This document shows positions 1 through 26,599 of a stretch of 54,569 bases of DNA, in pieces. The notes beneath the pieces were generated by a model. It saw nothing but the letters and a program-made list of their open reading frames with translations, was not told the origin of the DNA and searched no databases. The DNA is taken from IMG/VR virus record IMGVR_UViG_3300025886_000032, positions 1 through 54,569 of that record, one strand, 5' to 3'. The stretch is from a virus. Position 1 is the stretch's first letter, and every line of letters begins with the position of its first letter. Made by a program: the position numbers and the translations under genes.

Positions 1-334
1 TCCAGCGTATGGGAAAAGATTCATTAGCACGTCCTTTACATTCAATAATGAAATCAGTTCCAATAAAATCTGGAGTATACTTAATGTTAAGTATTTTTTT
101 ATTACCCCTATTGCGGTATTCACCTTTTCCATTGCCTTGTCGTTCATAAGCTTCTTGTTCGAAGTTAAAAGAAGGGACAAGCTCGTAAGTTTGTCCCTCG
201 TAATGCGCCTTAATCTTAGCTTTTTTCAAAGCTATGTACATATGTTTTTCTAAACCTGAGGCAAATTGTATGCCATCATGTTTAACTTTTTTAGATCTTA
301 CCGGACCTTTCTTTCGTTTAAACCGGCGCGACAT
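1..334 (-). CDS. PD-(D/E)XK nuclease, DUF1064/T7 endonuclease I-like (partial, runs off the window)
   Basis: The reading frame starts at an ATG at 334 and runs off the left edge, so the C-terminus is missing. About 111 residues are visible. The start is very basic (MSRRFKRKKGPVRSKK), followed by DGIQFASGLEKHMYIALKKA, then YTPDF and FIIECKGR. A Glu in the first helix, then PDF, then E-x-K is the order of PD-(D/E)XK nucleases such as T7 endonuclease I and DUF1064 proteins. The family suggests Holliday-junction or branched-DNA cleavage during replication or packaging; that role is inferred. It overlaps the upstream MazG-like gene by 17 nt. Truncation prevents checking length and C-terminal motifs. 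Confidence 0.7.
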   Translation of the reverse strand, partial: MSRRFKRKKGPVRSKKVKHDGIQFASGLEKHMYIALKKAKIKAHYEGQTYELVPSFNFEQEAYERQGNGKGEYRNRGNKKILNIKYTPDFIGTDFIIECKGRANESFPIRW

Positions 335-5816: not shown

Positions 5817-6572
5817 TTACAGATAATCAATCACTTGCGAGTGATCTACATTATCTATTAACTTGTTTACTGCTTGCTTTTTAAGCTCTGATACTCTTAC
5901 ATATGCAGATACCCCTTTAATTTCTAAACCTGCTGCTATATCATTAGCAGACCACTTTTTTCCATCAAGGCCATAGCTTTTATTTAAAACAAATACTTCG
6001 TCAGAAGTTAGATGTTTATTTAATAAACTTAATATATAAGCATTAAGCAGTGTTTCATTGTAAGGATCTGATTTATCAGGTATTTGATAAACCATATCTT
6101 CATCTGATGGATTAGCATCGATACTTAAGAATATGCTATTAAAAAACATAGCAACCATCTTTTTATCTTTACCACCATCTTTACGCATTTCATTTAGCTT
6201 ATGCTCAGGTATACGCATTGTACCTCTATTTATATCAATAGCTCTACGTATTCCACCTCTTATTCTTTTAGCTAAAAATGATTTTAAAGTTTTTTCAATA
6301 TCTTCAGATTCAAATAATCTAGTTCTATCTATTTTATCTACAGCTTTACATAATTGTAAACTACCTTCTTGTATTATATCGTTTATAGACATAACACCTG
6401 AAGCTTCTTGCGATGTAGCAAACTTTCTTGATATATTTTCTACTAAAGGTAAGAATATTACTTTAAGTTCTTCAGGCTTATAATCAACAAATCTTTTTGA
6501 TTTAACTGCTTCAATAACTCTTTTAACATCTTCTTTATACCTAACGTAGTTTTTTACATTATATTTTTTCAT
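5817..6572 (-). CDS. Phage-encoded RNA polymerase sigma-70-family factor
   Basis: 251 residues. Region 2-like segment at about 55-125, with NDIIQEGSLQLCKAVDKID and a following helix RGGIRRAIDINRGTMRIP, matches the core-binding and promoter-melting part of sigma-70 factors. Region 4-like helix-turn-helix at about 188-240 (LTSDEVFVLNKSYGLDGKKWSANDIAAGL). Region 1.1 and a clear region 3 are absent. It should redirect host RNA polymerase to phage promoters, and the repeated TACAAA/GATAAT elements are the obvious candidate targets (inference). It overlaps the HTH gene by 14 nt. Confidence 0.85.
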   Translation of the reverse strand: MKKYNVKNYVRYKEDVKRVIEAVKSKRFVDYKPEELKVIFLPLVENISRKFATSQEASGVMSINDIIQEGSLQLCKAVDKIDRTRLFESEDIEKTLKSFLAKRIRGGIRRAIDINRGTMRIPEHKLNEMRKDGGKDKKMVAMFFNSIFLSIDANPSDEDMVYQIPDKSDPYNETLLNAYILSLLNKHLTSDEVFVLNKSYGLDGKKWSANDIAAGLEIKGVSAYVRVSELKKQAVNKLIDNVDHSQVIDYL

Positions 6573-7179
6573 GTTGTCTATTTAATAATTCTTTTTCTCT
6601 TTTAAGTTCTTCACCCATGTTTCTATGTATTGTTCTTTGTGAGCATTTTAAAACTTCAGCTAATTTAGCTATTGTAATTTTACTTTGCTCATGTATGTAT
6701 AGCATTGCATCGTATATATCATCTTCTTTAATGCTTTTACCTTTACCAGCTATTGTACCTACAATGCTTAGTTTCTCACTAGTACTTAAACCTGTACCAT
6801 CTTTAAATACTATTTTACGTAATCTATTTTTAGGTGGTCGATCAAGATCTTCCATATACACTTCATAGATCATATTGTTTAGTATTTGTTCAGGTACTTC
6901 AAAAGTAATAAATCCATTGTTTTCATAACATATATACTCAGATAGGTTTCTAAATTCATCCATAGTTAATTTAGGATTTAGATACCATAAGGTTAATAGA
7001 TGCCATTTTAAAGACTTATAACTATTAATCTTAGCTTTAGTATTAAACAATGAATAGTAATCGTATGTACCTTCTTCATAATGCCAACCCCAACCATAAG
7101 TCGATGTTGGTGTATCAGAAGAATACTTACGATATATTACTCTGTTTTGGTTTAGATATTTTAAATTACGGTGTGACAT
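6559..7179 (-). CDS. HTH-domain protein, possible transcription regulator
   Basis: 206 residues. The C-terminal helix-turn-helix is recognisable at about 168-195 (ITIAKLAEVLKCSQRTIHRNM), similar to helices of sigma or Crp/winged regulators. The N-terminal ~130 residues are unassigned and rich in Tyr/Trp. Its placement immediately before the sigma factor with a 14-nt overlap suggests a regulator or accessory of the same transcriptional switch. The start codon region is part of a 46-bp palindrome (7172-7217), which could mean autoregulation. Both points are inference. Confidence 0.65.
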   Translation of the reverse strand: MSHRNLKYLNQNRVIYRKYSSDTPTSTYGWGWHYEEGTYDYYSLFNTKAKINSYKSLKWHLLTLWYLNPKLTMDEFRNLSEYICYENNGFITFEVPEQILNNMIYEVYMEDLDRPPKNRLRKIVFKDGTGLSTSEKLSIVGTIAGKGKSIKEDDIYDAMLYIHEQSKITIAKLAEVLKCSQRTIHRNMGEELKREKELLNRQHEKI

Positions 7180-7217
7180 TAGCCCCTTACTCTATATCCT
7201 TAGAGCCTATTGTCACA
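7172..7217. repeat. Imperfect palindrome copy A (46 bp)
   Basis: Outer arms TGTGACAnTAG and CTAnTGTCACA, with the variable base T on both arms (a T-T mismatch when folded). Inside lies TTACTCTA plus a secondary stem (CTCTA/TAGAG). It spans the end of the 40-residue gene and the first codons of the HTH gene. Related copies lie at 14347 and 15160. Function unknown: operator, recombination site or RNA hairpin. Confidence 0.6.
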
Positions 7218-13951: not shown

Positions 13952-14056
13952 AGTTATTTATTTTATTTAGTTATTAATTAGTTTGTGGTGAGTCAAGTGT
14001 TCGTTTTATTTAGAGACGCTAAAGTATGACTATCAACTACGTCTGTTGTTTATTAT

Positions 14057-14087
14057 ATTATCTTTTAAGTATTGTATTTAATTTGTA
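14057..14087 (-). promoter_or_regulatory. Promoter-like element 7 (TACAAA-19-GATAAT), no adjacent ATG
   Basis: Minus strand: TACAAA at 14087-14082, AATAC, GATAAT at 14062-14057. No ATG lies 6 nt downstream; the next gene starts ~105 nt on at 13951. The intervening leader can fold at 14002-14041 (GACG/CGTC arms). The element overlaps the end of the lipoprotein gene. Confidence 0.55.
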
Positions 14088-14245
14088 TAAGCTGGACAGT
14101 TATTGTAGTTTTTATTTACATGCATTCCATATTTAGTTATAGATACTTTACTTGTAGTTTTACATGAAGTAGATAACATTGATAGTATTATTATTGAAAT
14201 TACTATTGTTAAAGTACCGACATGAGTTGTATTTAGTTTATTCAT
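14078..14245 (-). CDS. Predicted small lipoprotein (55 aa)
   Basis: Starts MNKLNTTHVGTLTIVISIII, then LSMLSTSCKTTSK. A hydrophobic stretch ending in L-S-T-S-C is a plausible lipobox, giving a mature lipid-anchored peptide of ~28 residues with one further Cys. Phage lipoproteins of this size commonly block receptors or DNA entry (superinfection exclusion), so that role is a reasonable guess. It sits in the early-type small-gene region. Confidence 0.6.
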   Translation of the reverse strand: MNKLNTTHVGTLTIVISIIILSMLSTSCKTTSKVSITKYGMHVNKNYNNCPAYTN

Positions 14246-14346
14246 TTTATTGTTTTTAAAAGGTGTATATTTATTTATTAGTTATTATTAGTTGTTAGGT
14301 CTAGCACTTGTTCTCTCATTAACTTACATAGTTAATATTATAAAAG

Positions 14347-14393
14347 TGTGACATTAGCTAGTTAAATAAGTAGAGTAACTACCTATTGTCACA
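14347..14393. repeat. Imperfect palindrome copy B (47 bp)
   Basis: Arms TGTGACAnTAG / CTAnTGTCACA with the variable base T on both arms of the plus strand, and TAGAGTAA inside. Inner stem TAGTTA/TAACTA. It lies immediately after the stop of the 83-residue minus-strand gene and is followed on the minus strand by CTTTTAT, so it could double as a terminator. Confidence 0.6.
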
Positions 14394-14395
14394 TA

Positions 14396-14647
14396 TTACT
14401 CAGATACTAAATGATCTAAGATTTCACTGTATTCTCTACAGAATTTTGGAACAGTATTACTATTTGTATAAGATTTGTACTGTTGGAAACATGGCATACT
14501 TTCAAACTTTTCTTGAAATGTTGAATAGATTTCATCATGATCATAAGTAAATTTATAGCCTTTTTTGTTAGTGAAAGTGATTACAGTATTTGTACCGAGT
14601 AAAGACTTTCTGATTACAAATCTTTTAGTTGTTATTTTATTATTCAT
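14396..14647 (-). CDS. Hypothetical protein (83 aa)
   Basis: Starts MNNKITTKRFVIRKSLLGTN. Basic beta-like N-terminal half (TVITFTNKKGYKFTYDHDEI), helical end. No family recognised. About 45 nt separate its ATG from promoter-like element 8. The stop is 3 bp from palindrome copy B. Confidence 0.55.
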   Translation of the reverse strand: MNNKITTKRFVIRKSLLGTNTVITFTNKKGYKFTYDHDEIYSTFQEKFESMPCFQQYKSYTNSNTVPKFCREYSEILDHLVSE

Positions 14648-14692
14648 AGTTTATATTTATTTATTTATTTATATTTAGTTTAGTTATGTTAT

Positions 14693-14724
14693 TATTATCT
14701 TTTGTAGTTTGTATTTTGTTTGTA
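14693..14724 (-). promoter_or_regulatory. Promoter-like element 8 (TACAAA-20-GATAAT)
   Basis: Minus strand: TACAAA at 14724-14719, AATAC, GATAAT at 14698-14693; the spacer is 20 bp rather than 19. The expected ATG position 6 nt downstream reads ATA; the gene starts at 14647 instead. Confidence 0.5.
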
Positions 14725-14748
14725 ATTAATTAGTTTGTATTTAGTTAA

Positions 14749-14886
14749 TTATTTATTTAACTTATTTATTAAATATTTTAACGATTCTGATAAACCAAAG
14801 TCTGTTACGTTACCGTTTAAGTATTGGTTTAATTCGTCGATAGTTGCGAGTATTTCGATTTTAGTATTATTATTTATATTTTGCAT
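14749..14886 (-). CDS. Small hypothetical protein (45 aa)
   Basis: Starts MQNINNNTKIEILATIDELN and ends YLINKLNK; Asn-rich, helical. No family recognised. It is the first gene of the leftward arm, about 50 nt after promoter-like element 9. Confidence 0.45.
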   Translation of the reverse strand: MQNINNNTKIEILATIDELNQYLNGNVTDFGLSESLKYLINKLNK

Positions 14887-14934
14887 AGTATTATTTTTAT
14901 TTAGTTATTATTTATTTATTTATCTTATACTATT

Positions 14935-14965
14935 ATTATCTTAACCACTCTGTATTATATTTGTA
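14935..14965 (-). promoter_or_regulatory. Promoter-like element 9 (TACAAA-19-GATAAT), first of the leftward arm
   Basis: Minus strand: TACAAA at 14965-14960, AATAC, GATAAT at 14940-14935. It lies at the boundary between the divergence region and the leftward genes, so it probably starts leftward transcription. Confidence 0.6.
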
Positions 14966-15159
14966 TTAAATTTAGTTAGTTAATTGAAATGTCAAAGGCC
15001 TAATGGTATCGGAGGGGCCAGGGGTAAACGTCAAACGTATACGATATGGGGAATAAAACGAAGGGGGCCCATGAAATGAAAACGTAAAAGGTTATTGGCC
15101 TTGGTCGTAGGGGGGAGGGGGCAACACAAATAATATACACATCTAATATAATTAAAAAA
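14966..15159. other. Non-coding divergence region with G-rich tracts
   Basis: No convincing gene on either strand. From about 14996 to 15125 the plus strand has repeated G runs (for example GGAGGGGCCAGGGG, GGGGGCCC and a run of six G then five G), near-palindromes CGTATACG and GGGCCC, and AAAGGCC/GGCCTT arms around 14994 and 15092. Such composition is unlike anything else in this AT-rich window. It lies where leftward and rightward transcription diverge, so an origin, packaging or control site is possible. Confidence 0.5.
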
Positions 15160-15205
15160 GGTGACACTAGGTACCTAGTATATAGAGTAACAGGCTACTG
15201 TCACA
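15160..15205. repeat. Imperfect palindrome copy C (46 bp)
   Basis: Arms GGTGACAnTAG / CTAnTGTCACA with variable base C on both arms, TATAGAGTAA inside. Same length as copy A, to which its reverse complement aligns with the core TTACTCTATAT in register. It lies in the divergence region, ~96 bp before the first rightward gene. On the minus strand it is followed by CCTTTTTTAATT. Confidence 0.6.
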
Positions 15206-15301
15206 CTATTAATTCAGCTCGTTTATGTAAATTATTCAAAAAACATGTGAATAGCTATTAATATACGTATAAAAAGAATATTCATTTAAAAAAACATAAT
15301 T

Positions 15302-15478
15302 ATGCCAAGTTATAATCCAGATAAAGGAGCAGTAAAAGGTTTAGCTGACAGAGGAAGAGCTAAGATATTAGGACACATGGGTGGAAGAGGAGTAGGAAAG
15401 AAGATTAATTTTGATTCTTCTACAAATAAAGGAATTAAAGGGTTAGGTAATCCTGATGCAGAGGGTAAATACATTTAG
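15302..15478 (+). CDS. Small basic Gly-rich protein (58 aa)
   Basis: Starts MPSYNPDKGAVKGLADRGRA, then KILGHMGGRGVGKKINFD. Basic and Gly-rich; no family recognised. First gene of the rightward arm; the stop is two bases from the next ATG. Confidence 0.55.
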   Translation: MPSYNPDKGAVKGLADRGRAKILGHMGGRGVGKKINFDSSTNKGIKGLGNPDAEGKYI

Positions 15479-25391: not shown

Positions 25392-25565
25392 ATGCATAGC
25401 AATTTAATAAAAAACACTGTTTATACTTTTAGAAATGTTAATTCTAGATCTCCAATTCCACCTGGTCCAAGACCTATAAATAATAAAATAATTCAGGAGT
25501 CGGGACCAATACCTGTTTTTATATTGCTAGAAAATAGCTCCACTGAAACAATAATACAAGAATAA
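25392..25565 (+). CDS. Small hypothetical protein (57 aa)
   Basis: Starts MHSNLIKNTVYTFRNVNSRS, then PIPPGPRPINN and a hydrophobic end. No family recognised. The TAATG junction with the collagen-like gene supports it. Confidence 0.5.
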   Translation: MHSNLIKNTVYTFRNVNSRSPIPPGPRPINNKIIQESGPIPVFILLENSSTETIIQE

Positions 25566-26599
25566 TGGCTAATAAAAAAATATCACAATTTACATCTGAA
25601 ACTGATATAACTAAAATAGAAGGTTTGGCTGGTTATAATCTTACTGACAATGTTAAAATTAGTGGTTCGGAATTAATAACCTCTTTAATAGATAACGGAC
25701 TTGGCGGTATACCAGGACCTCCTGGAGAGCAAGGAGAACAAGGTATTCAAGGTGTTTCAGGAATTCAAGGTATTCAAGGTGAACAGGGAGAACAAGGTGT
25801 TCCAGGTGAACAGGGTGAAAGAGGTTTACAAGGTGTTCCAGGTGAACAAGGTGACGAAGGACAACCAGGTAGAGACGGTACAAATGGAGCTAATGGAGCT
25901 CAAGGCGAACCAGGCAGAGATGGTGTAAACGGTACTAATGGAGCCCCAGGTGCTCAAGGCGAGCGAGGCGAACAGGGCGAACAGGGCGAACAAGGCGAGC
26001 CAGGCAGAGATGGTACTAACGGAACGAACGGTGCTAATGGATCTCCAGGAGAACCCGGACCCGCAGGTAGAGACGGCACTAATGGAGCTCAAGGAATACA
26101 GGGTGAACCAGGAGCAAACGGAGCAAACGGAGCTGATGGTAGAGATGGTGCTGATGGAGCACCAGGTGAACAGGGAGAACAAGGTGAAAGAGGTATTCAA
26201 GGTCCAGCTGGGACTAATGGAACAGATGGTAGAGATGGTGCTCAGGGAATACAAGGGGAACCTGGAGCAAATGGTACCAATGGTACTAATGGTTCTCAAG
26301 GAGAGCAAGGTGAGCAAGGTGAGCAAGGTGAGCAAGGCCAACAAGGTATTCAAGGTATTCAAGGGCAACAAGGCGCAACAGGTTCACAAGGACCACAAGG
26401 GCCTCAAGGGCCAGCAGGTGCCCAGGGCAATTCATTTATTGTTACTTCGGATTGGGTTAATATTGAAGGGGAAATTACAGGTATGAATGTAAATACAAAA
26501 ACTGGTTGTGTAACTGTTACTACAAAATCAGGCTTTCAGTTTGCGTTATCTCCAGGAGAATGTCGACCTGAACCTAATCCAGATGACGAAGGTAAATAG
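25565..26599 (+). CDS. Collagen-like fibre protein (344 aa)
   Basis: Residues 1-47 are a short N-terminal domain (KISQFTSETDITKIEG ... KISGSELITSL) of the type that anchors phage fibres. Residues 48-289 are about 80 uninterrupted Gly-X-Y triplets (GEQGEQGVPGEQ style). The last 55 residues (SFIVTSDWVNIEGEITG ...) are a likely trimer-nucleating cap. It should fold as a triple helix forming a virion fibre. Bacteroidota phages use such proteins for contact with the host. Confidence 0.9.
   Translation: MANKKISQFTSETDITKIEGLAGYNLTDNVKISGSELITSLIDNGLGGIPGPPGEQGEQGIQGVSGIQGIQGEQGEQGVPGEQGERGLQGVPGEQGDEGQPGRDGTNGANGAQGEPGRDGVNGTNGAPGAQGERGEQGEQGEQGEPGRDGTNGTNGANGSPGEPGPAGRDGTNGAQGIQGEPGANGANGADGRDGADGAPGEQGEQGERGIQGPAGTNGTDGRDGAQGIQGEPGANGTNGTNGSQGEQGEQGEQGEQGQQGIQGIQGQQGATGSQGPQGPQGPAGAQGNSFIVTSDWVNIEGEITGMNVNTKTGCVTVTTKSGFQFALSPGECRPEPNPDDEGK
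25706..26431 (+). repeat. Gly-X-Y coding repeat tract
   Basis: 9-bp and 18-bp imperfect units encoding GEQ/GEP/GAN triplets. Near-identical blocks repeat, for example several GGTGAGCAA units around 26308-26340. Long mirror frames on both strands in this tract are by-products of the repeat. Confidence 0.85.

Follow-up and report, generated by a model that had tools for sequence, protein, structure and literature searches.

A conserved non-coding element, present once per genome, at the early/late divergence point of a Bacteroidota virus

Genes and features at the divergence point

The window, that is, the whole stretch of DNA analysed here, consists of one virus record, possibly incomplete, with a length of 54,569 bases, and the host group of this virus is the Bacteroidota. 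The window terminase showed 64% identity to that of MW202828 (an uncultured podovirus), 45% to those of the Flavobacterium elemo phages, and 31-42% to those of Cellulophaga, Maribacter, and Tenacibaculum phages. The leftward genes included primase/helicase, thymidylate synthase, Erf-like, exonuclease, ligase, and sigma-factor-like genes; the rightward genes included GroEL, terminase, portal, and further virion protein genes. An earlier note on this DNA had placed a G-rich island where leftward early-type and rightward late-type transcription diverge, and the gene starts (leftward at 14886, rightward at 15302) agreed with that placement. An ORF similar to the innermost leftward gene was visible by eye in the relative contig G077 (L206). 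At 0.8-1.9 kb upstream of GroEL, the sequences L025, L026, L051, L052, L060, and L061 shared a coding stretch (VYGSRVSGDF, found by eye) that may be nucleotidyltransferase-like. The features of the locus are listed in Table 1.

Table 1. Positions of the features around the divergence point in the window
Feature	Position	Strand	Basis or remark
Innermost leftward (early) gene, 45 aa	14749..14886	-	translation
Innermost leftward early-promoter-like motif, TATTATC-N9-TCGTATTTAGTTTGTA (read on +)	14928..14971	-	one of nine copies with the same 9-nt gap
G-rich left extension: AAACGT repeats and CGTATACG	15006..15044	+	outside the widely conserved element
Conserved single-copy non-coding element (model R1)	15045..15145	+	model match
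Core block, GGGGGCCC at 15063-15070, then A-rich tract	15060..15090	+	alignments A1, A2, and 57-copy
Second block, GGGGGGAGGGGGCAACAC...ATCTA	15110..15145	+	conserved in alignments A1, A2, and 57-copy
Palindrome GTGACA...TGTCAC, copy C	15161..15204	.	late side of element
First rightward gene, 58 aa	15302..15478	+	ORF

The interval given in the earlier note, 14966-15301, was the entire intergenic stretch; the element proper occupied about 100 bp of it, and subclade-specific G runs reached left to 15014. No ORF of at least 60 aa overlapped the island, in line with the earlier remark that no gene fits there; the ORFs of 20-55 aa that were present look like chance, and a tRNA identity was rejected, none being found. 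CGTATACG (15036-15043), GGGCCC (15065-15070), and palindrome copy C were all present as previously described.

Six runs of at least four G were found on the plus strand within a 131-nt stretch of the island (15014-15017, 15021-15024, 15048-15051, 15063-15067, 15110-15115, and 15117-15121), and the plus strand of the entire window held only 24 such runs. First-order Markov simulations (n = 300, either strand) gave a maximum of two runs in 219 cases, three in 78, and four in 3, so that the clustering noticed earlier, with six runs against a simulated maximum of four, was borne out. The composition of 15001-15131 was 0.489 GC, 0.351 G, and 0.137 C. The description of the island as an exception in an AT-rich background held for the run clustering but not for base content, since the collagen-like gene near 26128 had a higher G fraction; therefore, run clustering and not G content is the unique trait of the island. 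This collagen-like tail gene was located at 25565-26599, and 25501-26500 had 46% GC, while the rest of the genome was AT-rich.

Two kinds of short motif flanked the element. Nine early-promoter-like motifs were located at 2206, 8889, 10437, 11417, 12357, 12815, 14056, 14693, and 14934, all with an identical 9-nt gap and all in the leftward orientation; no credible motif of this type was found on the opposite strand of the window. The palindrome GTGACATTAGCC...TGTCAC had three copies in the window (7173-7216, 14348-14392, and 15161-15204), one of which overlapped the start of a regulator gene (HTH-like, 6559-7179), and in most relatives it adjoined the element on the late side. We infer a promoter role for the TATTATC-N9-TCGTATTTAGTTTGTA motif and an operator role for the palindrome; if both roles hold, the element would lie in an untranscribed gap.

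A conserved two-block element in related contigs

Comparison with relatives showed the island to be one subclade's G-rich form of a non-coding element that is conserved and occurs once per genome where early and late transcription diverge. The element consisted of a core with the pattern GGGGGnCCCG..AAA..AAAAT..TTT and, about 43 nt after it, a second block (GGGGCAACaCnatActtCTATATaTCTA). A total of 57 non-redundant copies were compiled, and the two blocks were at near-constant spacing. Absence of the island from close relatives, which the earlier note had named as a counter-argument, was not what the comparison revealed: the window and L034 were identical at 118 of 125 positions (94%) over 15006-15130, compared with 254 of 338 (75%) on the early side (14648-14985). 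The left extension was common to the window and L034; L012, L014, L197, and L201 were also G-rich there, with a different sequence. G-richness is not what is conserved, as most copies held 0-2 runs of at least four G.

Model R1, which used sequence alone and was trained on 33 copies, matched the window at 15051-15145 with 44.5 bits (E 8e-13; the window was in the training set), and the next best match had 8.1 bits. When the HMM was built without the window and L034, the window copy was still the top match of the genome (E 3.8e-4), and after L012, L014, L197, and L201 were also left out it had an E of 0.0056. Searching 50 large relative contigs, a set that left out L167, L170, L182, L187, L188, and L190 (each at least 50 kb), R1 found the element in 43 at E<=1e-4; 13 of the 43 were training contigs or near-copies of these and 30 were untrained. 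Among the remaining seven, G046 and G050 gave no R1 match and five had only E 0.02-0.3. Each of the 43 had one copy except G016 (L204, L205; 69.4 kb), where two copies lay 61.75 kb apart, and this contig therefore holds more than one genome unit. The element, unique in the window, was thus found at one site per genome unit, as a packaging site would be.

Relatives found through primase, on the early side, also carried the element. In more distant relatives found through GroEL, the core and the second block kept one strand orientation with respect to the late genes. A GGGG-CCC pattern had been used to choose the first 16 copies, so the near-invariance of the GGGG-CCC core in alignment A1 is in part a product of that choice; the second block and the approximately 30 untrained contigs were free of this selection. 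A pattern scan of viral contigs gave 15 stretches, of which three were related contigs already known and 12 were set aside as unrelated; nine of the 12 had 45-68% GC, and L097, L099, and L103 stood outside the GC measurement. A primase search of bacterial genomes returned five contigs from metagenome bins, and no credible element was seen in them. When the DNA of the region was compared with phage records, the sole similarity was to Lak phages over 39 nt (E 0.1), which was judged to be chance, and no such element was described in the literature searched.

Possible functions of the element

The earlier note had suggested a replication origin, a packaging site, or a transcription barrier. The first two fit the single copy, fixed place, and conservation of the element, and the single copy together with the fixed place and orientation suggests one or the other; the barrier was not supported. 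A packaging or genome-end (terminal-repeat) site is the best single reading, with a little under an even chance of being right. It is favoured, indirectly in each case, because of the predicted repeat of phage Gundel_1, the record end of phage Panino, and the clustering of contig ends near the element; the terminase gene, 13 kb away, counts against it. In the mechanism proposed, terminase would recognise the core in concatemeric DNA and would cut at or near the second block, a place chosen because of where the Gundel_1 predicted repeat ends. The stretch on the early side (roughly 0.1-1 kb) would become the terminal repeat, and the linear virion DNA would start on the early side of the element, run through the late genes, and end after the early genes.

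Contig ends were counted in the 40 element-bearing contigs that were 50 kb or longer, the window included. Eleven of the 40 had ends within 1 kb of it (8 on the early side and 3 on the late side). The early-side rate was 1.0 end per kb at 1-12 kb, against which eight ends within 1 kb had a Poisson probability of 1e-5; no end was found at 1-2 kb on either side in the 40 contigs. Ends were spread over the entire early region, and only the extra peak beside the element was used. Many contigs, the window among them, ran through the element. The ends of G073 overlapped by about 91 nt and those of G061 were near-repeats, which are therefore cuts of circular assemblies; contig ends need not equal virion ends, and assembly fragility in a repeat-rich gap is a live alternative explanation of the clustering. 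Fixed hard contig ends (cos) were rejected because twin contigs ended at different distances.

Among the isolates, the Tenacibaculum phage Gundel_1 (MT732474; terminase 30.9% identical to that of the window) had an annotated 322-bp short direct terminal repeat covering its own divergence point; its ends are, according to PMC8776804, unverified PhageTerm predictions. In a search of the first 1050 bases, the best core match fell within this repeat (35-69, minus strand; 9.4 bits, E 0.0014), and its orientation towards the early genes agreed with that of the window element. Read in window orientation, the end of the predicted repeat lay about 55 nt beyond the G run, close to the expected place of the second block. 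Genome-wide, the repeat match with the 57-copy HMM ranked second and was not significant (4.5 bits, E 2.6). A search for close relatives of Gundel_1 for comparison of the repeat returned Gundel_1 alone. The linear record of Panino, a Canu long-read assembly according to PMC11590407, stopped on the early side of a similar core, about 0.4 kb from it (rank 7 in the genome with the 57-copy HMM, 2.3 bits), and no repeat was found at the record ends.

Over whole isolate records, the best R1 matches were elsewhere than the divergence point. With the 57-copy HMM, MW202828 was the only record of the isolate set whose best genome-wide match (8.9 bits, E 0.1) lay there, upstream of GroEL; the elemo match ranked fifth (3.2 bits), and phi13:2 and phi19:3 had no model match at the divergence point. 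The elemo record MT497090 started about 45 bp from a candidate core and was given no weight, as other elemo records start elsewhere.

It is possible, but unlikely, that the element and its AT-rich left flank form a single replication origin serving both gene blocks, with packaging elsewhere. The single copy in the 43 contigs, the position between divergent gene blocks, the 22.8% GC of the left flank (14001-15000), and a cumulative GC-skew minimum near 13-14 kb are consistent with an origin; however, the skew follows gene orientation and so does not discriminate. The window and some relatives had AAACG-type repeats to the left of the core; many copies lacked them. A DnaA-box cluster was rejected, as 15 DnaA-box-like sites were found in the window against 18.6 expected and none in the island. 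No initiator gene was seen among the ORFs tested, and an origin would leave the Gundel_1 predicted terminal repeat unexplained.

A regulatory hub is slightly less likely still. Here the element would take no part in DNA processing but would hold sites for a phage or host protein that controls the leftward early and rightward late promoters. Of the nine early-promoter-like motifs, the innermost has the element directly upstream. The element also adjoins a palindrome that has two further copies, one of them at the start of the HTH-like regulator gene, and a phage sigma-factor-like gene is present. However, there is only one element, and none accompanies the other eight motifs or the other two copies of the palindrome; approximately 100 bp, with two conserved blocks, would also make a long operator.

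A transcription barrier, or a G-quadruplex/R-loop primer resembling mitochondrial CSB II, is very improbable, and as a conserved function it is largely refuted. The G6AG5 run in the window and the G-rich strand of L012, L014, L197, and L201 speak for it; against it, the G4 prediction proposed in the earlier note gave none for the window, not even when loops of up to 12 were allowed, and four G3+ runs with short loops occurred in only 2 of the 57 copies. No terminator-like site was found, single-strand DNA folding was unremarkable (z -1.0), and alignment A1 (14 copies) had 0 pairs of conserved RNA fold. Rfam gave no family at the gathering threshold anywhere in the window, and a structured RNA leader thus had neither a known family nor a covarying fold in its favour.

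Meaning and comparison with known systems

Extended from the window to its relatives, the packaging reading proposes a two-block packaging signal common to uncultured Bacteroidota podoviruses that encode GroEL and form a large clade. Lying 13 kb from terminase, with early and late promoters pointing away from it, the signal would define the terminal repeat and place palindromic control sites at the genome end. Taken as a whole, this proposal is speculative and rather doubtful. If true, DNA ends, early/late switching, and perhaps replication would be linked in one module. The element is a sequence signature for one fixed genome point in a widespread, mostly uncultured phage group; with it, incomplete metagenomic genomes can be placed in a common orientation and joined, and the way in which DNA ends are set in these phages becomes a simple mapping question.

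The G6AG5-type run of the window was likened to the G-rich block of mitochondrial CSB II. Unlike CSB II, the window had no G4 motif by pattern and its G runs were unconserved in relatives, and the analogy was dropped after the G4 pattern test. Gundel_1 differs from the window in its unrecognisable second block, its gene order, its terminase (31% identical), and its ends, which are predicted; like the predicted terminal repeat of Gundel_1, the window element lies at the divergence point next to the early genes, and the core is weakly matched there. In T7-type phages, the concatemer junction, or terminal-repeat packaging site, is single per genome unit and lies at the early-gene end. The element resembles such a site in position and copy number, being single per genome unit and located at the early-gene end.
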